A stretch of 64,000 nucleotides of DNA from Clostridiales bacterium (GTDB taxonomy: Bacteria > Bacillota > Clostridia > Oscillospirales > Acutalibacteraceae). The DNA is taken from assembly GCA_021199275.1 (NCBI GenBank), contig JAJQIJ010000001.1, positions 90,473 to 154,472 on the forward strand, given 5' to 3'. Below are positions 1 through 51,422 of this stretch, piece after piece. Position 1 is the stretch's first letter. Each line of letters opens with the position of its first letter. Made by a program: the position numbers and the translations under genes. The notes under the pieces were generated by a model, which worked only from the letters and a program-made list of their open reading frames with translations, was not told where the DNA came from and ran no database searches.

Positions 1-3000
1 GGCGGCTCTGTTTCGGGCAACACCGCGCTGACTTACGGCGGCGGCGTTTACATTCAAAACGGCAGCAGCTACAGCACTTATTGGAATGTGTTTGAAATGA
101 GCGGCGGCACAATCAGCTCAAACAGCCTTGCCAATGACGACGCAAGCTACAGATACGGCGGCGGGGCATTTGTCGGCAATTACAGCACCGTGACTCTTTC
201 GGGAGGTAAGATAAACGAAAATTACAATGTGCGCGAAGGCGCAGGTATATATGTTGGGCGCTATGCAACCGTGACTGTTGAGGGCGACATGGAAATTTCC
301 GGCAACCGCATGTATATGGAAACCTATGCCACATGCAGCGGCGGCGGCATTTACGTTTACACTTACACCAACATTACAATTTCAGGAAATGCCCAAATTA
401 CCGGCAACACGGCGAAAAAAGGCCGCGGCGGCGGTGTGTATGTTTATATGAGCAGCACATTGTCAATGACGGGCGGCACTGTTTCCGGCAACACGTCGGG
501 CAACTATGGCGGCGGAATTTATTTTGAACAGGCAACTGTGACTTACGACTCGGAAATCAGCGGCGGCACAATAAGCAACAACACGGCCGTTTACGGCGGC
601 GGCGTGGCTTTGGGTTACAGCTATGCCGCAACAAACGCGCCGTTTTTACTGACAATCAGCGGCGGCACAATAAGCGGCAACACCGCCAATTTAGGCGGCG
701 GCGTTTACACATATTGCTCTTATGTGGCAATGTCGGGCAGCGCCGTTATAACTGAAAATTCAGCCACGACTTACGGCGGCGGCATATATGCTGACAGATA
801 TGCGTCTGAAGTCTGGGCTTCCGGCTATGAAGAGCCGCAAGACGGTTATTCCGTTATTGTGTCGGGCGGCAGCCTTTGTTCAAATACGGCGGGCACCGGC
901 GGAAACGACATTTGCACGGTTGAATATTACAACAATGCCGCCAGCTATCATTTTCCTTACATAAAGCTTGCCGCCGCGCAGGACATGAACAGCAGCAGCG
1001 AAGATTCCGCATGGCTTTACGAAGTCAGCGCCGGCAGTTGGGGCGGCACGGGCCTTGTTTATGAATCAATAGACACTAAAGACGAAATGACTTCTATTGA
1101 ATATTCAAGCAGCTATAACCATTACCGCTATTATACATTTACAGCTGACACAAACCCCGTGGCGCAGATAAACAGCACAGTTTACACCAGCGTGCAGGCT
1201 GCGGTTAACGCTATTGCCGGCGGCAGCCAGGAAAACGGTGCGGAAATAGTAATGATTGCAAACAGCAGGGAAGATGTTGTAATTCCGGCTCAAACAGACA
1301 GCGGCGAGAGCTTCAGCGCAACCATAAACCTTGCGGGCTATGAGCTGCGCGGGCTTATGTCAAGCGTTATTACGGTAAGCGCCGGGGCAGCCCTTACCCT
1401 TAAAGACACTCAGGTTAATTTTGACGAAAGCGGCAACATGGAAATAACCGACGCCGAAACCGGCACCGGAAAAATAACAGACGGCAACGGGCAGGCCCTT
1501 ACATTGGGCAGCAGCGAATGCGTTTGCGGCGGCGGCGTCTTTGTTGCCGGCAGCTTTATTTTTGAATCGGGCACAATAACGGGAAATGAGTGCAGCAATG
1601 TTTCAACCGCTGCCAATGCCTGCGGTACAGCCGTTTATGTGGCGTCTGGCGGCAGCTTTACAATGACCGGCGGCGAAATTTCAGGCAACGGCGCTAACAG
1701 CTATAACCACACGGTTTGCGCTGTTGCGGCGGCAAACAGCTTAGAGTCGTCTGCAACGGCGCAGCTAAAGCTGACTGGCGGGTGCATAACAGGCAACACA
1801 GGCCACGGCCTTACAGCCGCAGGTCAGGCTGAAATCACCCTGGAAAATTTTGAAATTTCATCTAACACGGCTGCGTCATACGGCGGCGGCGTATTTCTGT
1901 GCGATTCGGCGTCTATGGTTGCAACAGACAGCAAAATAATAAAAAACACCGCGTCGTACGGCGGCGGCATGTCGCTTTACGGGGCCAACACGGTTGAACT
2001 TTACGGCACGTTAATTGAATCAAATGCCGCAAGCAGCGACGGCGGCGGCATAAAAGTTGAAAGTTCCGGCACGCTGACTGTCGGCGCCGGAACCGTTATC
2101 ACAGGCAACGCGTCAAATTCACAGGGCTCACTGGGCGGCGGCGGAATTCAGCTGTACAGCACGGCGGGCACGCTGATTATGGCGGGCGGGCAGATTTACG
2201 GCAACACGTCTCTTGACACATATTCGGCAAACGATTTGTGCATTTCCGGCAAATTCTGCTATGCTGACAATGAAGACAGCGTTGATTACCGCGCCGCAGA
2301 AAACATGGCTGTGTCCGGCATAAACAGCTGGCAGAGCATTTACACAGGCGTTTATTATGTAGGCGAGCTTGATTCAGCAATGGGCTCTGACGTCAAGGCG
2401 CTTTCTGATATGTTTGCAAGCGACGGGGTTACGCTTAACACACGCTATTACCTTACCGCGGCAGACTATACAGATTCCAATATTGTTGCGGGCGTTGTGC
2501 AGGAATATGACGAAAGCGATTCTACAGCCGGCTGTTACAGCAGCGTAAGCGCGGCAGTTGACGCTGCGCTGACATACAGCAAACAAAACGGCAATGCAGA
2601 CGTAACCGTGGAACTGCTTTGCGACACCTCAGATTATATTTATTACAAAAACACTCTTGGCTCAAACGTTACGCTTGACTTAAACGGCTATACACTTACA
2701 GGCAGGGTTGCGGGCGGCTATGTTATTTATATTCAGGCGGGCAGCTTTGTTTTAACTGACAGCAGCGCGTTTGATGAAAGCGGCGAGCTGGGCTATGACA
2801 GCGATTACTGCGTGTCCGGCACGGGCGCTTTAGTTTGCGACGAAAACAACACAGACTGCCGCGCAGTTTATGTTTACACGGGTGTGTTTGAAATGAAAGC
2901 GGGCACAATATCCGGCTTTAATTTGCAGTCGGGCAGCGGCGCCGCAGTTTACGTAAACAGCGCAAACAACGGCAGTTACAGCAATAACGCAGCAACATAT

Positions 3001-6000
3001 AAAAACGACAATTCAGTAAGCTATAACACATTTGTTTTTTCAGGCGGCACCATTAAAGACTGCACTGCAAGCAGCGGCGGCGGGGCAATTTATGTTGCCA
3101 GCGCAGACAATTCAAGCAAAACTTATTCCGGCGCGCTTAAAATGAGCGGCGGCAGCATTGTAAACTGCACTGCAAACCAGGGCGGCGCCATGTATCTGGC
3201 ATTTGGCTCTCAATACACCAAATCTTATGCCGAAATAACCGGCGGCGTTATAAGCTCTTGCACGGGCAACACAAGCGGCGGCGGAATTTATTATGCCGGC
3301 AGGGGCCGTTCAACATATGAAGCGCGTTATGACATGGTTGAAATATACGGCGTTACAATAACCGGCTGCGCTGCGGGTGATTACACAACCCAAAGCTATG
3401 CCGGCGGCGGTATTTATGCCGTGCACCCGGCAACTGCCGTGACATATAATGACGACAACACGCAAGACGGCGGCAGCACCGGCACAAACGAAGTTTACGG
3501 CTATTTCATTATAGGAGACATTACGGGCGAAAGCGAAACCATAATTGAAAACAATTCCGCTTATTACGGCGGCGGCATTTATTTTTACACAAATTACCAG
3601 GGCGCGGCGCAGTTTTCGGCTGAAATTTATAATGTGACGTTTACGGGCAACACGGCGCAGCACGGCGGCGGGCTTTATTCTGACATTACGGATTTAATTA
3701 TGAGCGGCTGCACATTCAGTGAAAATTCAAGTTCGCTTTCAGGCGCGTCCGGCATGGGGGCTATTGTTTATGGCTTTGCGGCGGTTATAGAAGACTGCAC
3801 TTTTGAAAAAAACACAGCAACCATAGCGGGCTACGGCGCCGGCTTGAGGCTGTATTCGCGCGCAAACAACTACGGGCGTGAAGACGGTAAAATGACAGTG
3901 CGCAACTGCACTTTCCAAGATAACGAAGCGGCTTACGGCGCCGGCGTAAGAATTGATTTGGCAAAGAGCTCGCAGATTCCCGTTGTGTTTGAAAATGTTT
4001 CGGTGCTAAATAACACGGCGGGGCTTTACGGCGGAGGTATTTGTTTCGGCGACAACACTACTGACGCCAGGCGCGCCGTTACATTGACAGGCTGCACTGT
4101 TTCAGGCAACACGGCGCGTTATGGCGGCGGCATTGCCACATATGCCATGATGGGGATTGACCTGGTGCTGGAAGACACAACCGTGTCAAACAACACCACA
4201 TACAGCAGCGGCTACGGCGGCGGCATATATTTTTATTCGCGTTACAGCACAAGCGCTTATGAATATGTTCAAAACAAACTGACCTTACTTGGCAGCACGC
4301 AAATTACTGACAACTTTTCTTCTTACAACGGCGGCGGGGTGTATATCAGCGCAGCCAGCCTTATAATTGGCAGCGGCGACGGCGAAGACAGCGTTACAAT
4401 TTCCGGCAATACAGTAACTTCGTCCGGCTACAACGGGGGCGGCATTTACATGACGTCCGGCTCAATGACCGGGTGTGAATTTACAATGTACAGCGGCACA
4501 ATTTCAAACAACAGCGCATACAGCGGCGGCGGCGCATATCTTTACAGCAGCGATTCCACCGGAATTCGCATAACCGCCAATATTTATGACGGCACGTTTT
4601 CCGCCAACACGGCAGACAATATGGGCGGCGCGCTGTTCATAAGCGGCTATCAAAATGCGTCATACACTTCTTACCTTGCCCCGTCAGTCAATATCACGGG
4701 CGGGCTGTTTACAGGCAACACTGCGCTCAGCGGCGGCGCTATTTATATGCATTACCAGTCAACCGACGTAAACGTTTCCGGCACGGCTGTAATCACCGGC
4801 AACACCGCCACAAGCTATGGCGGCGGTGTGTATCTGCAAAGCTACAACACATATTTTACCCTGGGCGACGGCGGCAAAATTTACGGCAACAAGGCGGCGC
4901 TCGGGCAAGATGTTTACGGCAATTATTCGGCAAGCTATAAAAATTCAAACCTTTCATTGATTTCAGCTTCAAGCATGTTTGAAGACGGAAACGAACAGGG
5001 AATTACAGCCACTGCATGGCTTTACGAAATGACAGGCGACACTTATACCACGGCGCTTAATTTTGCGCCCATGACAAAAATATATGCGCTGACTCTGCAA
5101 TATGCCATGGAAGCCATTGTGGCGGTGGTAAACGGTGTTGCGTACACGTCTGTTCAGTCTGCGGTGGACGCTATCAATGCGGGCAGCACCGGCTCTGACA
5201 CCACCATTATTTTAGTGGCAGACCCCACGGAATGCGTCACCATTCCGTCAGGCTTGTCTGTCACGCTTAATCTTAACGGCTATACCCTGACAGGCGGCGG
5301 CAACAGCGCCATAACCTGTTACGGCAATCTTGAAATTATAGACGAAGCAACGTCCGGCACCGCAACGGCAGACGCAAACGGATTTTACGGCACAGACGAA
5401 AACGGCGACGCTGCCATTGTAACTGCGGGCAGCGAGCTTGAATATGCAAACGGCGGCGGCACCGGCACAATAACGGGCACCACTGCCATTGCCGGCGGCG
5501 GTATATATATTGACAACGGCGGGCAGGTAACAATGAAAAGCGGGCAAATTGCAAACTGCTATGCCGGCGGCACAACCAATTCTTCAAGCTACGGCGGCGG
5601 CGCCGTTGCAATTGCGGCGGGCACGTTTACGCTTGAAGGCGGCAGCCTTAATAACAATTCGGCAATACGCGGCGCGGCGGTCACCCTAATGGCTTCTTCC
5701 GCCAAATTCGTAATGACAGGCGGCGTTATTGAAGAAAACCAGGCGGTTTCAACGGCTTCCGTAACCACGGGCTACGGCACTATATGCAACAACGGCGGCA
5801 CAGTGCTTATAAGCGGCGGCACAATTCAAAACAACCATGCGGGCAACCAGGGCGGCGCAATTTATAATGGGTCAGGCACGCTGACTATTGCCGGCACTTC
5901 GGCAGACAGCCCCGTCATTATAACCGGCAACACTGCGGGCAACACGTCCGGCTCAGACGGCTCAAGCCAGGGCGGCGCCATTTATGTAAACGCCGGCACG

Positions 6001-6450
6001 GTGCGCATAACAAACACCCAAATCAGCAGCAATTGCACAATATCAACAAAAAGCGCCAGCACAACCACTAAAAACGGTGTGGCAAAGGGCGCGGGCGGCG
6101 CCGTTTATGTAAATAACGGCACCGTTACCCTTGGAGACGGCACCACAATAACAAACAATTCGGCAATACGCGGCGGCGCTGTTTACCAAAGCGGCGGCAC
6201 GGTTACTATTATGGGCGCGGTTATAACCGAAAACACAGCGCTTATGGGCGGCGGTGTGGCGCAAAACCCATTTCCCGGCAACACAACCACCAAAATGAAT
6301 ATTGTTTCAGGGCAGATATATGGCAATTCATCGACCCTGACTAACACCGGCAACGACATTTATTCGCGCTATGAGGGCGGCAGCGGCACTCTGGAAGAAT
6401 ATTATGCTTTTCTGGGCAACAACACATCTGTGCCTTATCTTACGGCGCTG
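1..6450 (+). repeat. Tandem beta-helix coding repeats of the giant surface protein
   Basis: Degenerate repeats of roughly 60-110 bp, recognisable at DNA level by recurrent ggcggcggc(a/g)ttta blocks that encode GGGIY/GGGVY after an N-T/N-S turn. They are protein-coding repeats in a single frame, not a CRISPR or satellite. They make the region prone to recombination and to assembly collapse. Confidence 0.8.
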
Positions 6451-9400
6451 GGCGCGGCAGACATGGGTGTAGACGGTGTGAATGTTTGGAAAGACGACTC
6501 TTACACAGGCGAAAACCGCACCGCCGAATATGTAACCGAAGGGCAGTTTATTATAAAGTCCGTTAAATCGTCTACAAATTTGACCCTGACTGCCGAATAT
6601 TATGAAGTAGACGTTACAAGCGACTATTCAAGCGACAAAAAAATCAGCAGTGTTTACATTTCTTCAATGACAGACGGCACAGGCGTGTGGGACACCGGAG
6701 ACGATGTGGCGGCGGCGGAAATTTCAGCTGAATATATGCTTGAAAATGCCACAAACGGCGTTTACACCGCAGCAGACGGCACGGCTTATACAGTCAGCGA
6801 ATCAAGCAGCACATATTGCGATTCGACTTCATATAAAAACGAACTCAATTATATAAGCGTCAGCGCAGACGGCGGCGACGCAGTGCTTTATGAAAGAACA
6901 CAGGCGGTAAGCTGGTCTGCCGGGGACGACCAAGACGCATACAATTACATTGTGCGCAGCTGGGACACTGTGTCTTACAACCTGGGCTATGTCTGCGCCA
7001 ACACAAATGAAGAAACTTCCAATGAAGGCAGCGAAGAAAAAACTTACAGAATCTGGCTGACTGCAACGCTTGACTGTTCCACATCGGAAGGCACGTTTAC
7101 AACAATTCCGCTTGACAGCTATATTCTGACTGAATCAGACGGGGTGCAAACTCTTTACGGCTATTTTGACATAACAACCTCGTCAGACAGCATAACAGAC
7201 ACCCTGCGCCTGGTTGTAAGCGTATATGGCCTGACAGACGGCACACTTATCAAGCCCACATTCACCATGTGGGTTGACGGTAATACAGACAATGAACAGA
7301 CCCCTGCCGAAAGCGAATCTGCCACAATAACCGTTTCGGCAGCTCCGCGTTATAATATTGAAATAGATTACAATTCCACGCTTACATATACAGGCTATTT
7401 CAACCTTGAAGCCGGTGTGGAAGTTTCAAGCGGCGAAGCATTAGACGACAATGGTGACGTGAAAGACGGCTATATTTACGGCACGGTGCTTGGCTATGGC
7501 ATTACGCTTGAACTTTACAACAGCAGCAACAGCAAGGGCTTAAAGGGCATTGAAATACCCACAGACAGCCTGTCTTTTGAACTGAGCTTCAAGGGCGCTC
7601 TTGTAACAACAGAAAGCAGTTCTACAGACACTACTATGTCAACCGACACCACCGTGTTAAGTGAAGCCGCGCCTTATATTTGGGCTTATAAGGAAAACAA
7701 CACGTCTGAATACGGCACGGCGCTCGGCGGCACCAAAGCCACGGTTAACATGAACTGGAGCGATGAAGACGAGCTTACACAAACAACGCACTATGCATAT
7801 AACGCTGCGCCTTATAACACCGGCAGCAACAGCTCTTCGTGCTATAACGGCGGCGGCTGGAGCATGACAGGCAGCCAGCCCGAAAGCACAGACACTGAAA
7901 CCACCGTAACTGTAACGGTAAGCAATTACCAGTTCAACACAGACACAAACCCGACTAAAAATTCAGACGGAGTAACTGACACAACTCTTGCGCTTTCAAG
8001 CGTAAAGGCATTTTCGGCAGGCTATGTGCAGGTTATTTACCCGATTGACACGTCTTTAACAACAGAAGAAACAGGCGACACCGAATATGTTCAGATTTTA
8101 ATGCGCGCCGCTGTTTCAAAGCTTGACGTCACAAGCACAAGCGGCAAGTCGCCGTCTGATTATATTGACTCTGCCGGCAGCGAAGACCTTGAAACGCTTA
8201 ACAAGTTTTTTGAGGCAGATGATTCCGGCGATTTAACCCAGTCTTCATATACGTATACAACGCAGGACGACAGCGGGGCAGAAGTCACCGAAACCGTTAC
8301 CGGCGGGCCGTGGGCGGTAAATGAAATACGTTATGACGACAATTATTCGCAAATGACAACGGGCTTTTATGTTTTTGACGGCGACAACGGCGACTGGCTG
8401 TGGAAGCTAAACCATTTTTATAACACAGCGGGCAGCACCGCCCTGACTAATGACGCCGGCAGCGGTTCCACCCCTATAGGCAGCGTTGTTTATATGGACG
8501 GGGAAATGACTTTCTACAGCGGCACAACAGACAATTCAGATTATATGGATTCGCTTGATTCCCAGTATTTCAGCGCCATTGAATATAATTATATGACTGC
8601 CATGAATATGTTGCAGAAATTTGACGCAGACGCTTACACCCCGGTGGGCGCAGATGCCGTTGTGGGGCAGACATATACGGTTACGTCAAACACAAATTTG
8701 TCAATAGGCAACGGCGCATTTTTGATAAAAACAGACGAAACCGCGCTTGGCACAGACGCAACATGGGCCAATGGGGAAGACCCCACGCTTACGTTCGATT
8801 TAACTATTTTGTATGCCGCAAAGCCTGACGGCAGCAATTGGGACAATATTGATTTGTCCATAAACGGCGACGCCTATGAAGTCACCACCACGTCTTCAGG
8901 CACTGAAAAGGGCGGCGACGGCGGAGTTACAGACATGGACTCATACCGTGAGGAAAACCTGATTTATTTCACCACGCTTGACGATTTGTATGACTATTTC
9001 GGTTATGACGAAGACGGCAACCCCAAGGGCCAGTGTGTGGCGATTTTATATGAATTCAGAAACTGCTGCATCAGAAACGGGCGCTCAATTTATTGCAAGG
9101 CCCAGATGAATGTGACAGATGACTTTGAAATGACAGGCGAAACATATTGCACAACAAACGATGTGCATATATGGACAACTTACCGCCCATATTATAAAAT
9201 TCTTTATTGGAACGGCGTAGACAAGTCTGAATATTTATATAATTTCACATGGACTGACTATAAATATTCAGACAGCAGCGGTGTTGACGTTTACGGCGTG
9301 GCGCTTGACGAGGGCACGGTGTTTTTAACGGACTCAAGCAATGATTCAGACGACAAATATAAAACACTGTACACAGTGGGCACAGACGCCGACACAGACG

Positions 9401-12012
9401 CTGTTTATGAGGCGTTTACAGCAGAGCCAACATATAAACTTAATTTCGGCACAGACGCAGACGGCAAAAACGGCACGCTTACCACCAACAGGGTAACAAC
9501 TTATGTAGACGGCTATGTAAAAACGACATATTCAGGGGGCAGCATTGTAAGCGGCTCGCACAATGGCGCATACAGCGGCAATTCGCTGCTGCTTTATACG
9601 CTTGACACATCTATAACGCTGATGGTGGCGGACACTGTGGGCAGCGGCAGTAACGCCGTTAAAACAACTTATGACGTGGCGCTGGGCGAAACCACCGTAA
9701 ATTACACCGTAACGCCTGACATAGACATTTCAAGTCTTGTAACGAACACATTAGTTAATAACGGCACCCAAAACACTGAAATTACCATAACGCTGGACAT
9801 ACCGGACTATTTGACATATGTAACCGGCAGCATTGAATTTGACTATTCAGTTTGTGACTATGAAGACGGCGATTTGCAATGGACTGTCAGCGTTGTTGAA
9901 AATTCCGACGGCACGCAGAGCGTAGCCCTTACGACCTATGTGTCAGACGTTGAAAAAGGCCTGCCGTCTTTCGGCTTTTCGGCTAATATTGACACGTCAA
10001 ATGACTATGAGGTGGTTGGAAAGACGCTTACCGTAACAGGCTCTATTTCCGCTGTTTATGAAGAAACGCAGACATATGCGCAGCAAATGCATTCTTCCAG
10101 CGCGTCAGTTCAGGTAACAATGTCAACGGCAGACGGCATTTCAAAAACCATTTATGAAAGGCTGACTGAAATAGGCGAGTCGTTTACATATAACCTTTCA
10201 TACACCAACAACACGGGCGTTGAAAAGGTGCTTGAATTTACAGATGTGCTGCCATATAACGGCGACGGGCGCAGCAGTGTAATAACCGGCGGTTACCGTG
10301 TGGAAAGCATTGTTATAACGCTTGACTCGGAAAGCTGTGCGCTGTGTGACAGCTATAGCCTAATACTGAAATATATGACCGGCATTACAAGAAGCGAAAA
10401 TACGGAAGACCAAGCGGCGCTGCTTGACAGCTTCGGCGGCGCTGAAAGCGCGGCAGACAGCGGCTGGGGCGAAATAACCTTAAGCGAATCAGATTCGGCT
10501 GCTTACACGCTGACTTATTACCCAATCGGCCTAATATATTATGATTATGAAACGGCGGGAATTGCCCTGTTTTCAAATATTTGGGTTGCTGACAACGGTG
10601 CTGTTGACATAACTGTTACGCTTTCCCCGCTTACGGCTGACAGCGGCGTGCTGATTACCGGCAGCAGCAATTCCACACAAGACGACGAATGCATTTATTA
10701 TAACGACTTTTTCTACAGAAGCGCTAATCTTACAGTCAGCGGCGGCGAAGCGGTTATCAGCAGCTTCACTACGCCCGCGCCGTCTAAAGCAGTCAGCGTA
10801 AAGCCAATCAGCAGGGTCTTGTCCGGCACGGTTTGGCTTGACCAAAATAAAGACGGGCTTTATGACGACGGCGAAGAAGATGTGCTTAAGGACATTGACG
10901 TTTATCTTTACACCGTAACCGAAAGCATTGACTCAGAGGGCAACACGGTGTATTCGCCGTGGCTGACCGTTGATTCCGCCGGCCGGTTGACAGATTCGAC
11001 CGGCAATGAAGTTACCCTTACTGACACGGGCGAAACAGATGATTCCGGCTATATTATTGCAGAGCTTGACTCAATTTCGATTTCATGCATTGAAATAGAC
11101 GGCGTGCTGATTCCCGCAGCTCTTACAGATGTGCTGGGCAATGTGGTTTTGCCAACGGCTACCGACTCGCAAGGCAAATACAGCTTTAAAAATCTGCGCC
11201 AGGGCGACTATATTGTTATGTTTACAGACGACGCCGGCAGCGCTTACACATTAAACGACAGCGGCGAATCCGGGCTGCGCAGTTTTGAAAACCTTATAGT
11301 TACAAATCTTGACTACAAAACGCTTAATAACGGCAACAGGTCAACCGCCGTTTCAGACGGCGACGCATTGCTTGGCGCAGTGCTTTACACTTCTGTTTCA
11401 TTGCCGGAAAAAAGTGCCATTCAGTCAAGCCCGTACACCAGCGCAAACTGGAACTTGGGGCTTTATTATGACAGCTTTGATTTCATTTTCAGCAAAACGG
11501 TTTACCAGGCAGACGAAGACAGCACCCAATTTGAATTTGTGCTTTCACTTGTAATGCCGACAAACAATTTGGGCACGGCTGTAACCGGCGAATATGATTA
11601 TGTCATTTTAAACAGCGACGGCACTACTGCGTCAAGCGGCACTTTGTCAGTTACTGACGAAAACAGCGGTGACTTTTCGGCAAACTTTACGATGACTCAC
11701 GGGCAAAGCGTATATGTTTACGGCCTGCCGCCCGGCACACAATATACTATTGCCGAAACTCTGTGCCCGGGCTACACTGCCGCTTATGCGGTGACAACGG
11801 AAAGCGAACAGCTTTCAAAGGGGCTTACCGCCCCCAGCGGCACTATAGAAGACGCAGACATATATGTGCAAATTGTCAATTTCACGGGCGCGCTGCTGCC
11901 CGGTCTTGGCGGCGCCGGCACGGCATTGATTATTTTTACGGCGGCTGTAATAATGGCATTTGGCGTGTTCTTTGCCATAAAGTCGCGCAAAAAGCGCAAA
12001 GCAGGCGCATAA
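1..12012 (+). CDS. Giant beta-helix repeat surface protein, 5' truncated by window
   Basis: The frame is open from base 1, so the track's ATG at 88 is internal and the real start lies upstream. About 4,000 codons are visible. The first half is built of short turns of the type GGxIxxNTAxxGGGIY, typical of right-handed beta-helix, Pmp-like adhesins. These are grouped into modules that each open with a (Y)TSVQxAVDA segment followed by LNGYTLTG (near nt 1170, 2530 and 5140). Residues of roughly 2,200-3,600 look like DUF11-like or isopeptide-type beta domains. Next comes an SdrD-B-like domain (SGTVWLDQNKDG, nt about 10825) and a Cna-B-like domain. The C-terminus has LPGLGG, a hydrophobic segment and a KSRKKRK tail, so it is probably wall- or membrane-anchored and exposed. 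The motif is LPGLG, not LPxTG. A ligand cannot be deduced. A hairpin terminator follows. Confidence 0.88.
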   Translation, partial: GGSVSGNTALTYGGGVYIQNGSSYSTYWNVFEMSGGTISSNSLANDDASYRYGGGAFVGNYSTVTLSGGKINENYNVREGAGIYVGRYATVTVEGDMEISGNRMYMETYATCSGGGIYVYTYTNITISGNAQITGNTAKKGRGGGVYVYMSSTLSMTGGTVSGNTSGNYGGGIYFEQATVTYDSEISGGTISNNTAVYGGGVALGYSYAATNAPFLLTISGGTISGNTANLGGGVYTYCSYVAMSGSAVITENSATTYGGGIYADRYASEVWASGYEEPQDGYSVIVSGGSLCSNTAGTGGNDICTVEYYNNAASYHFPYIKLAAAQDMNSSSEDSAWLYEVSAGSWGGTGLVYESIDTKDEMTSIEYSSSYNHYRYYTFTADTNPVAQINSTVYTSVQAAVNAIAGGSQENGAEIVMIANSREDVVIPAQTDSGESFSATINLAGYELRGLMSSVITVSAGAALTLKDTQVNFDESGNMEITDAETGTGKITDGNGQALTLGSSECVCGGGVFVAGSFIFESGTITGNECSNVSTAANACGTAVYVASGGSFTMTGGEISGNGANSYNHTVCAVAAANSLESSATAQLKLTGGCITGNTGHGLTAAGQAEITLENFEISSNTAASYGGGVFLCDSASMVATDSKIIKNTASYGGGMSLYGANTVELYGTLIESNAASSDGGGIKVESSGTLTVGAGTVITGNASNSQGSLGGGGIQLYSTAGTLIMAGGQIYGNTSLDTYSANDLCISGKFCYADNEDSVDYRAAENMAVSGINSWQSIYTGVYYVGELDSAMGSDVKALSDMFASDGVTLNTRYYLTAADYTDSNIVAGVVQEYDESDSTAGCYSSVSAAVDAALTYSKQNGNADVTVELLCDTSDYIYYKNTLGSNVTLDLNGYTLTGRVAGGYVIYIQAGSFVLTDSSAFDESGELGYDSDYCVSGTGALVCDENNTDCRAVYVYTGVFEMKAGTISGFNLQSGSGAAVYVNSANNGSYSNNAATYKNDNSVSYNTFVFSGGTIKDCTASSGGGAIYVASADNSSKTYSGALKMSGGSIVNCTANQGGAMYLAFGSQYTKSYAEITGGVISSCTGNTSGGGIYYAGRGRSTYEARYDMVEIYGVTITGCAAGDYTTQSYAGGGIYAVHPATAVTYNDDNTQDGGSTGTNEVYGYFIIGDITGESETIIENNSAYYGGGIYFYTNYQGAAQFSAEIYNVTFTGNTAQHGGGLYSDITDLIMSGCTFSENSSSLSGASGMGAIVYGFAAVIEDCTFEKNTATIAGYGAGLRLYSRANNYGREDGKMTVRNCTFQDNEAAYGAGVRIDLAKSSQIPVVFENVSVLNNTAGLYGGGICFGDNTTDARRAVTLTGCTVSGNTARYGGGIATYAMMGIDLVLEDTTVSNNTTYSSGYGGGIYFYSRYSTSAYEYVQNKLTLLGSTQITDNFSSYNGGGVYISAASLIIGSGDGEDSVTISGNTVTSSGYNGGGIYMTSGSMTGCEFTMYSGTISNNSAYSGGGAYLYSSDSTGIRITANIYDGTFSANTADNMGGALFISGYQNASYTSYLAPSVNITGGLFTGNTALSGGAIYMHYQSTDVNVSGTAVITGNTATSYGGGVYLQSYNTYFTLGDGGKIYGNKAALGQDVYGNYSASYKNSNLSLISASSMFEDGNEQGITATAWLYEMTGDTYTTALNFAPMTKIYALTLQYAMEAIVAVVNGVAYTSVQSAVDAINAGSTGSDTTIILVADPTECVTIPSGLSVTLNLNGYTLTGGGNSAITCYGNLEIIDEATSGTATADANGFYGTDENGDAAIVTAGSELEYANGGGTGTITGTTAIAGGGIYIDNGGQVTMKSGQIANCYAGGTTNSSSYGGGAVAIAAGTFTLEGGSLNNNSAIRGAAVTLMASSAKFVMTGGVIEENQAVSTASVTTGYGTICNNGGTVLISGGTIQNNHAGNQGGAIYNGSGTLTIAGTSADSPVIITGNTAGNTSGSDGSSQGGAIYVNAGTVRITNTQISSNCTISTKSASTTTKNGVAKGAGGAVYVNNGTVTLGDGTTITNNSAIRGGAVYQSGGTVTIMGAVITENTALMGGGVAQNPFPGNTTTKMNIVSGQIYGNSSTLTNTGNDIYSRYEGGSGTLEEYYAFLGNNTSVPYLTALGAADMGVDGVNVWKDDSYTGENRTAEYVTEGQFIIKSVKSSTNLTLTAEYYEVDVTSDYSSDKKISSVYISSMTDGTGVWDTGDDVAAAEISAEYMLENATNGVYTAADGTAYTVSESSSTYCDSTSYKNELNYISVSADGGDAVLYERTQAVSWSAGDDQDAYNYIVRSWDTVSYNLGYVCANTNEETSNEGSEEKTYRIWLTATLDCSTSEGTFTTIPLDSYILTESDGVQTLYGYFDITTSSDSITDTLRLVVSVYGLTDGTLIKPTFTMWVDGNTDNEQTPAESESATITVSAAPRYNIEIDYNSTLTYTGYFNLEAGVEVSSGEALDDNGDVKDGYIYGTVLGYGITLELYNSSNSKGLKGIEIPTDSLSFELSFKGALVTTESSSTDTTMSTDTTVLSEAAPYIWAYKENNTSEYGTALGGTKATVNMNWSDEDELTQTTHYAYNAAPYNTGSNSSSCYNGGGWSMTGSQPESTDTETTVTVTVSNYQFNTDTNPTKNSDGVTDTTLALSSVKAFSAGYVQVIYPIDTSLTTEETGDTEYVQILMRAAVSKLDVTSTSGKSPSDYIDSAGSEDLETLNKFFEADDSGDLTQSSYTYTTQDDSGAEVTETVTGGPWAVNEIRYDDNYSQMTTGFYVFDGDNGDWLWKLNHFYNTAGSTALTNDAGSGSTPIGSVVYMDGEMTFYSGTTDNSDYMDSLDSQYFSAIEYNYMTAMNMLQKFDADAYTPVGADAVVGQTYTVTSNTNLSIGNGAFLIKTDETALGTDATWANGEDPTLTFDLTILYAAKPDGSNWDNIDLSINGDAYEVTTTSSGTEKGGDGGVTDMDSYREENLIYFTTLDDLYDYFGYDEDGNPKGQCVAILYEFRNCCIRNGRSIYCKAQMNVTDDFEMTGETYCTTNDVHIWTTYRPYYKILYWNGVDKSEYLYNFTWTDYKYSDSSGVDVYGVALDEGTVFLTDSSNDSDDKYKTLYTVGTDADTDAVYEAFTAEPTYKLNFGTDADGKNGTLTTNRVTTYVDGYVKTTYSGGSIVSGSHNGAYSGNSLLLYTLDTSITLMVADTVGSGSNAVKTTYDVALGETTVNYTVTPDIDISSLVTNTLVNNGTQNTEITITLDIPDYLTYVTGSIEFDYSVCDYEDGDLQWTVSVVENSDGTQSVALTTYVSDVEKGLPSFGFSANIDTSNDYEVVGKTLTVTGSISAVYEETQTYAQQMHSSSASVQVTMSTADGISKTIYERLTEIGESFTYNLSYTNNTGVEKVLEFTDVLPYNGDGRSSVITGGYRVESIVITLDSESCALCDSYSLILKYMTGITRSENTEDQAALLDSFGGAESAADSGWGEITLSESDSAAYTLTYYPIGLIYYDYETAGIALFSNIWVADNGAVDITVTLSPLTADSGVLITGSSNSTQDDECIYYNDFFYRSANLTVSGGEAVISSFTTPAPSKAVSVKPISRVLSGTVWLDQNKDGLYDDGEEDVLKDIDVYLYTVTESIDSEGNTVYSPWLTVDSAGRLTDSTGNEVTLTDTGETDDSGYIIAELDSISISCIEIDGVLIPAALTDVLGNVVLPTATDSQGKYSFKNLRQGDYIVMFTDDAGSAYTLNDSGESGLRSFENLIVTNLDYKTLNNGNRSTAVSDGDALLGAVLYTSVSLPEKSAIQSSPYTSANWNLGLYYDSFDFIFSKTVYQADEDSTQFEFVLSLVMPTNNLGTAVTGEYDYVILNSDGTTASSGTLSVTDENSGDFSANFTMTHGQSVYVYGLPPGTQYTIAETLCPGYTAAYAVTTESEQLSKGLTAPSGTIEDADIYVQIVNFTGALLPGLGGAGTALIIFTAAVIMAFGVFFAIKSRKKRKAGA

Positions 12013-49377: not shown

Positions 49378-49595
49378 GCCCTTTACAAAGCTCGCCCCTT
49401 TTTCCTTTCGCTGCGCCGTGGCTTTGGAATTTTTAGCGGCGGGGCTTTTTTAATACGGCGCTTTAGCCGAAATATGATATTTTATTTCGTTTTATGAAAA
49501 ACTATTGCATTATTAATTTTTATTTGCTATTATTAAAAAGTAAATATATTTTACCTGCGCTCTTTCAGGGCGCAGCGCGGAAAGGCTCTGAAAAA

Positions 49596-51422
49596 ATGAA
49601 AAAATCAATTTGTGTTGTAATGTGTTTCTTGCTTGCGGTGTCGTCTGCGTTTATGTTTGCCGGCTGTTCAAAGGCGCAGGAACTTACATATGACGTTGTG
49701 CTGATTACAGACGGCGGCACTATAAGCGACGGGTCATATAATGAAAGCGCATGGAACGGAATAGTTCAATATGCTGAAAACACCGGCGCAAGCTACAGGT
49801 ATTACCAGCCGTCTCTTGACAATGATGTGCTGACTGACGAAGTTGCGGAAAAATATATTGAACTTGCCGCTGCCGCCGGCGCCAAATATATAGTTTTGCC
49901 CACAGACGCGTTTGATTCGGTAATTGAAAGCGCGGCGCTTCTTTACCCGGACATTAATTTTATTGTGGTAGACGGTAATTACGGCACAGACAGCGACTTT
50001 CAAAATGTTATGACTGTTTCGTTTGACACTATGCAAAGCGGCTTTCTTGCCGGGTATATGGCAGTTCTTGCCGGGAACACAGAGCTGGGCTATTTCGGCT
50101 CTTTCCTGAGCGACAGCTCATCAAGCTACGGCGCGGGCTTTGTGCAGGGCGCTGCATATGCCGCAAATGAGCTTGGGCTGCCCGTAACGCTTGACTATGC
50201 AGATTATGACAGCGAAAGCCTTACATATGACTATTCGGTAACCATAACCGCGAATTATGAAAAAATAGCAGATGTTGAAGAAGACTGCTTTGTTGTAAAT
50301 GTTGTAAACGGCAGCGGCTCCGGCACTTACACAGACGGCACAAATGTAACCCTTACAGCAGACCCGGCGCCCGCCGGCATGGTGTTTGACCACTGGGAAT
50401 ATGTAAGCGACACACAGGGCGTCAAAGACAGCAAGGTAAACCTTTCCACCACGAAAAAAACAGAAACAAACCTGCTTGTTGAAAAATGTGACTGCACAAT
50501 TACCGCGGTTTATGCTGAAGCTGAATCTGAAACATATTCCGTAACGGTTATGGCTGCAAACGGCACAGACGTTTATTCGGTGCAAAATATAACGGCAGAC
50601 TCTTCATGCACAATAACCGCACCGGCAGCTGAAAGCGGCATGGTGTTTGACCACTGGGAAGACAACAGCGAAGTTTCCGGCGCATTGTTATATGAAAGCG
50701 ATTCCGCCAGCACAACGTTTGAATTTATAGACGTTTATTGCGCTGACATTGTGCTGACGCCTGTTTATGTTGAAAGCGACGCCCCAACATTTGACGTTAC
50801 GGTTGTAACAGGCGAAGGCGGCAGCGGTGAAAGCACCGGCAGCGGCTCATATCAAAGCGGCGACTATGTTGAGCTTGTTGCCGCTGTTCCGGAAGAAGGC
50901 TATATCTTTTCAAGCTGGAGCAACACAGCGTCAGACGGCTATTCGGCAGGTCTTTCGCTTGAAAATGAATATTCGGCTTCAACTTCGTTTTCCATGGTAA
51001 ACCGCTGCCAGGCAGTTGTGGAAACCATGTATGACAGCGGCGTTACGCTTGTATATGCCGCCGGGCATGATGAAATCAGCGCCGTTTCAGACGCCACATG
51101 GAATTACAGCTTTCAGCTGTGGGCAATCGGCTCTGAAAATTACCAGTCAAGCTGGACTAATTATTACACAACCACTATTAAAGATTACGGCAGCGCGGTA
51201 TTGCAGTGCCTGGAAGCTTTTGCAGGCGGCACTGTGTTTACGGCAGACTGCTCAAACGGCAGCATTTCGCTGAGCTATGTTGCAGAAGATTATCAAGATT
51301 CATATGACGCGCTTTACCAAAGCTTGGCAAACGGCGGCATAAAGTTAAACACTGTTGACAGCAGCGAAGATATTGCCGCATGTTATTCGTCCAACCTTTT
51401 GACTTTTAATTATTGGGCATAG
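49596..51422 (+). CDS. BMP/PnrA-type lipoprotein with three inserted InlB-like repeats
   Basis: 608 residues. The start MKKSICVVMCFLL leads to a lipobox FAGC (Cys24). GGAAAGG precedes this ATG; the track start at 49494 is rejected. Residues 30-210 look like the first lobe of a BMP/PnrA nucleoside-binding protein (LITDGGTISDGSYNESAWNGI, SFDTMQSGFLAGYMA, YGAGFVQGAAYAA). Residues 479-585 continue that fold (GVTLVYAAGHDEIS, DYGSAVLQCLEAF). Between them are three Listeria-Bacteroides/InlB-type repeats with GMVFDHWE, VFDHWED and YIFSSWSN cores. No transporter genes are adjacent, so a sensing or surface-binding role is possible. Confidence 0.85.
   Translation: MKKSICVVMCFLLAVSSAFMFAGCSKAQELTYDVVLITDGGTISDGSYNESAWNGIVQYAENTGASYRYYQPSLDNDVLTDEVAEKYIELAAAAGAKYIVLPTDAFDSVIESAALLYPDINFIVVDGNYGTDSDFQNVMTVSFDTMQSGFLAGYMAVLAGNTELGYFGSFLSDSSSSYGAGFVQGAAYAANELGLPVTLDYADYDSESLTYDYSVTITANYEKIADVEEDCFVVNVVNGSGSGTYTDGTNVTLTADPAPAGMVFDHWEYVSDTQGVKDSKVNLSTTKKTETNLLVEKCDCTITAVYAEAESETYSVTVMAANGTDVYSVQNITADSSCTITAPAAESGMVFDHWEDNSEVSGALLYESDSASTTFEFIDVYCADIVLTPVYVESDAPTFDVTVVTGEGGSGESTGSGSYQSGDYVELVAAVPEEGYIFSSWSNTASDGYSAGLSLENEYSASTSFSMVNRCQAVVETMYDSGVTLVYAAGHDEISAVSDATWNYSFQLWAIGSENYQSSWTNYYTTTIKDYGSAVLQCLEAFAGGTVFTADCSNGSISLSYVAEDYQDSYDALYQSLANGGIKLNTVDSSEDIAACYSSNLLTFNYWA

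Follow-up and report, generated by a model that had tools for sequence, protein, structure and literature searches.

An InlB-type repeat array nested in the ligand-pocket loop of a BMP/PnrA-family lipoprotein from a Clostridiales bacterium

The gene at positions 49596-51422 (forward strand) of the window, the whole 64,000-nucleotide stretch analysed from a Clostridiales bacterium of the Acutalibacteraceae, is a single intact open reading frame for a 608-residue lipoprotein in which three InlB-type repeats split one BMP/PnrA domain at the loop that bears the second base-stacking aromatic of the ligand pocket. The original prediction, made from the letters of the window, had proposed one BMP fold in two parts around three such repeats, an arrangement borne out by collinear profile matches, and had taken the protein to be turned to surface recognition or ligand sensing. 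Ligand sensing is possible, and an adhesin-like role is less well supported than a nucleoside-related one. We consider it somewhat probable that this is an orphan lipoprotein for the capture or sensing of purine nucleosides, perhaps 5'-modified, that has been remodelled by the InlB-type array within its pocket.

The N-terminus is that of a lipoprotein, with a start codon, signal peptide and lipobox (...FMFAGC24) at 49596-49667 on the forward strand; the lipobox Cys24, encoded at 49665-49667, is an invariant column in an alignment of 40 sequences. Upstream, on the same strand, lies a promoter-like element (49505-49533) comprised of a -35 hexamer TTGCAT at 49505-49510, a 17-nt spacer and a -10 hexamer TATTAT at 49528-49533. 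This is a consensus match only, and pairs of the TTGCA...TATTAT type are also present upstream of most homologues. An alternative in-frame ATG at 49494 sits 5' of the promoter-like pair, making 49596 the likelier start. The protein occurs in one copy in its own genome, and a frame-shift or assembly artefact is ruled out by 43 homologues from different genomes that display the same architecture. Rfam returned no match tied to the locus, a glmS ribozyme being found near one homologue only (L045, 14906-15058), and the window contains a further open frame of 3974 residues at 88-12012.

Pfam assigns the protein to the Bmp family (PnrA-like, PF02608) with an E-value of 1.3e-25 and 90.5 bits against a cut-off of 24.1, the best stretch being residues 34-192, and in a genome-wide Bmp search the frame is matched twice, at profile positions 3-155 and 161-252, and the repeats occupy the stretch that separates the two matches. 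On a profile built from 17 uninterrupted BMP relatives, residues 1-200 correspond to positions 8-208 and the C-terminal half to positions 209-348 (E 1.8e-9, 30 bits; the top score of 200 shuffled C-terminal halves was 5.2 bits), while the two halves joined in silico gave 1.5e-58 over positions 8-347. Since the first half ends at position 208, the second starts at 209 and the joined halves match so strongly, they constitute a single domain with a sharp insertion point. The N-terminal part spans residues 28-208 (49677-50219, forward strand) and carries the pocket residues D45, Y48 and N49, and the C-terminal part spans residues 465-589 (50988-51362, forward strand). The insert, approximately residues 209-464 and about 256 residues in length, is found in none of the 17 relatives compared, so the two-lobe domain is not uninterrupted here; these relatives align flush with both flanks of the insert. 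The boundaries first proposed, residues 30-210 and 479-585 around an insert of some 265 residues, were correct in layout and are refined by these matches, and the absence of repeats from all 17 relatives agrees with the earlier view that such a nested insertion is unusual.

InlB B-repeats (Flg_new_2) usually occur as serial units in surface proteins. Here, Pfam matches the divergent B-repeat family Flg_new_2 in three places (PF18998; E 9e-18, 64.4 bits against a cut-off of 23.6), together with a List_Bact_rpt match that falls under its cut-off. The β-rich units of about 75-85 residues are typical of this repeat type and are designated R1 (residues 232-310; 50289-50525), R2 (residues 313-396; 50532-50783) and R3 (residues 398-467; 50787-50996), all on the forward strand, but the array differs from the usual form in two ways, its nesting inside a binding protein and its one-strand permutation. 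The terminal strand of R1 and R2 is of the type CDCTITAVYAEA or ADIVLTPVYVES, and a third copy, YDYSVTITANYEKI, precedes R1 at residues 211-224 (50226-50267, forward strand). The Pfam match on R3, in turn, ends at position 60 of 73, and R3 passes into a BMP helix without a last strand. A profile-profile comparison of the leading strand with the ends of R1 and R2 scored 28.7, against 12.4 for the best of 293 BMP windows (mean -24, s.d. 10), and a hidden Markov model of R1 and R2 detected the leading strand weakly. At the level of sequence, then, the array is in a permuted register in which the last strand of a repeat leads and R3 is left without one. The simplest structural reading, and most likely the correct one, is that the leading strand would complete R3 and so draw the two ends of the insert close to each other. 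An AlphaFold model from a two-sequence alignment with one homologue (L034) reached a pLDDT of 43 for the mature protein and 51 for the insert, values at which packing cannot be judged; set against the beta-grasp-like fold of InlB B-repeats, the low-confidence model of the insert is all-β, with the leading segment as a strand and a strand order that agrees with the permuted reading.

A survey of homologues found the gene, with its split architecture, in 63 of 80 genomes of the genus. The architecture was not seen among 38 genomes of other genera and a 391-genome sample of the class (more than 400 genomes), where matches were confined to the N-terminal half or to the repeats, in other proteins. 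In a tree of the BMP parts, all 44 genus members form one clade with a long stem, within which the three two-repeat forms make up a single nested clade (support 0.94). The array was inserted once, on the stem of the genus, and R2 was most likely lost once, because the two-repeat forms share that nested clade. R1 and R3 are retained genus-wide at 40-60% overall identity and with many invariant residues. Mean majority-residue conservation, calculated with approximate segment boundaries, is highest in R1 (0.75), followed by the BMP N-terminal half and R3 (0.67 each), the C-terminal half (0.57) and R2 (0.49). The variable repeat number and the absence of R2 from a clade of three genomes would suit a selectively neutral decoration, recombined into the gene and then tolerated, but the genus-wide retention of R1 and R3 and a conservation of R1 that exceeds that of the BMP parts make this very improbable.

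Alignment with the uninterrupted relatives, rather than a structure, locates the insert in the loop whose last residue is the Phe matching BmpA F176, which is the second of the two base-stacking aromatics (pocket residues are numbered after PMC13325309 and PMC7093131). The equivalent residue here is F465, on the C-terminal margin of R3, which puts the array's point of attachment at the ligand cleft. Pocket columns were compared between 44 genus sequences and the 17 uninterrupted relatives. The base-stacking pair (BmpA F27 and F176) is retained, with Y48 in 42 of the 44 and Phe or Tyr at 465 in every one, and D45 and N49 are likewise conserved throughout (44/44). D126, which corresponds to the ribose-contacting D98 of BmpA, is present in 37. 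The equivalent of BmpA D225 is Gly or Glu, with one Val and in no case Asp, and that of K242 is Lys in 20 and Asn in 19 of the 44, whereas these positions are Asp and Lys in 17 of 17 uninterrupted relatives. To judge from these substitutions, base recognition looks to have been kept and sugar recognition altered; since residues that touch the ribose are missing or vary, it is not certain that a nucleoside is bound.

The protein resembles PnrA/TmpC, BmpA, BmpD and Lbp (PF02608) in its sequence similarity to the solved chains, its lipobox, its stacking aromatics and its equivalents of D24 and N28, but it differs from each of them in the insert of about 256 residues, in not keeping the D225 and K242 equivalents and in lying outside an ABC operon. 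The closest relatives found are the uninterrupted BMP proteins of NupABC operons from the same class (L079-L095), with which it shares roughly 32-41% identity over the N-terminal half and sequence on both flanks of the insertion point. In contrast, these relatives are 359-417 residues long, are free of repeats and are mostly encoded just upstream of, and adjoining, NupA, NupB and NupC homologues, an operon to which the window gene does not belong. Two of the 17 (L080 and L094) have no full-length NupA match alongside. A separate arrangement of the BMP domain was encountered in another family of the order, where proteins of 1761-1780 residues (L067, 1596-6935; L068, 4570-9852) combine GH16, a WD40-like propeller and a dockerin with a C-terminal BMP domain, a placement after a dockerin that looks unusual.

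The earlier statement that no permease lies nearby holds for the neighbours in the window and for 21 genus neighbourhoods, in which distant ATPase matches were all that appeared. The window's own genome does encode a NupABC-type BMP-ATPase-permease-permease operon on contig 12 (L069, 5420-12525), which could supply a candidate permease in trans; this operon has its own 420-residue BMP protein and a permease-like open reading frame in front. The neighbours in the window are not shared with the homologues and were dropped as candidate partners. The genes shared among the 21 genus neighbourhoods are instead a purine nucleoside phosphorylase (PNP), MtnA and an amidohydrolase, present as a set in 15-16 of them (e.g., L034, 2847-5957) and possibly serving 5'-deoxyadenosine or methylthioadenosine salvage. 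Routes for methylthioadenosine and 5'-deoxyadenosine via a deaminase, a phosphorylase and MtnA have been described in P. aeruginosa and M. jannaschii (PMC6302742). The amidohydrolase matches deaminase-type families of NCBIfam, including 5'-deoxyadenosine deaminase, all below their cut-offs, so its substrate is a lead only. In 52 of the 63 gene-bearing genomes the PNP gene is divergent on the same contig, with 142-287 nt between match edges and zero same-contig exceptions, and it is usually followed by mtnA and the deaminase-type gene. The PNP match falls on another contig in two further genomes, and the PNP query found no match in nine, including the window's own genome, where the MtnA query also found none. 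The function cannot depend wholly on the PNP operon, given these nine genomes, but the pairing is not mere synteny either, since the flank opposite PNP differs between clades.

These observations bear on the surface-recognition role suggested originally, in which the BMP part would be a mere scaffold and the InlB repeats would engage a partner on the host, in the community or in the cell wall. The InlB B-repeat, arguably the least understood domain of InlB according to a structural study of that protein, has been proposed as a protein-interaction module (PMC8900821), and such a role would be in keeping with R1 as the best-conserved part, with the degraded ribose contacts and with the lack of a linked permease. 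Against it stand the retained base-stacking residues, the divergent PNP gene and the NupABC-type operon elsewhere in the genome. Moreover, the two or three repeats lie in a pocket loop instead of being displayed at an end, and a Pfam scan of the protein reveals none of the internalin-type hallmarks, namely LRR, GW or sortase-anchor domains, nor any other adhesin domain. We judge this role to be quite unlikely.

A ligand sensor akin to Med or P48, in which closure on the ligand would shift the repeat array and signal to a membrane partner, draws on the same lack of a linked permease and on the placement of the array on a moving cleft. Mycoplasma P48 and Bacillus subtilis Med are PnrA-like proteins for which roles beyond transport have been proposed, a sensory role for P48 being discussed by analogy with Med (PMC12892991), and Med (2hqb) is a weak profile match to the present protein. 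P48 differs in its linkage to ABC transporter genes, and no InlB insert is mentioned for either protein in the passages of that source consulted here. No kinase or regulator is prominent among the gene clusters common to the 21 neighbourhoods, and a sensor of this specific kind appears rather improbable.

The capture or sensing of purine nucleosides by an orphan lipoprotein thus remains the preferred reading. The protein would be an extracytoplasmic binder, held by a lipid anchor, whose ancestor served a NupABC-type nucleoside ABC transporter as its substrate-binding protein and whose pocket loop was entered, once, by an InlB-type array. With the leading strand completing R3 and the insert ends meeting, the BMP domain could close around the array, while Y48 and F465 would sandwich the base in a pocket that keeps D45 and N49 and has changed its ribose contacts. 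The ligand is most likely a purine nucleoside or a close relative, possibly a 5'-deoxy- or 5'-methylthio-purine nucleoside, since such compounds are what the products of the adjacent PNP-MtnA-deaminase genes would be expected to act on; the ligand may then pass to a permease encoded elsewhere, or its capture may be relayed to a partner that docks on the repeats. A narrower version, in which the protein is a dedicated extracellular binder of purine nucleosides modified at the 5' position, namely 5'-deoxyadenosine, methylthioadenosine or the inosine form of either, and the self-closing array supplies part of the pocket wall while also serving as a docking platform, is conceivable, if on the doubtful side.

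No account of a BMP-family protein with InlB was found in the library of papers searched, which leaves room for one elsewhere, and the titles and opening lines of abstracts on InlB B-repeats together with substrate-binding proteins describe no such arrangement. The protein offers a clear example from nature of a solute-binding protein that houses adhesin-type repeats within its pocket loop and has retained them throughout a genus, and the one-strand permutation is a sequence signature that would account for the accommodation of an array in a single loop. Because the gene is linked to a salvage operon, its ligand can be tested for directly, and the family could give InlB-type repeats a function outside host-cell adhesion.
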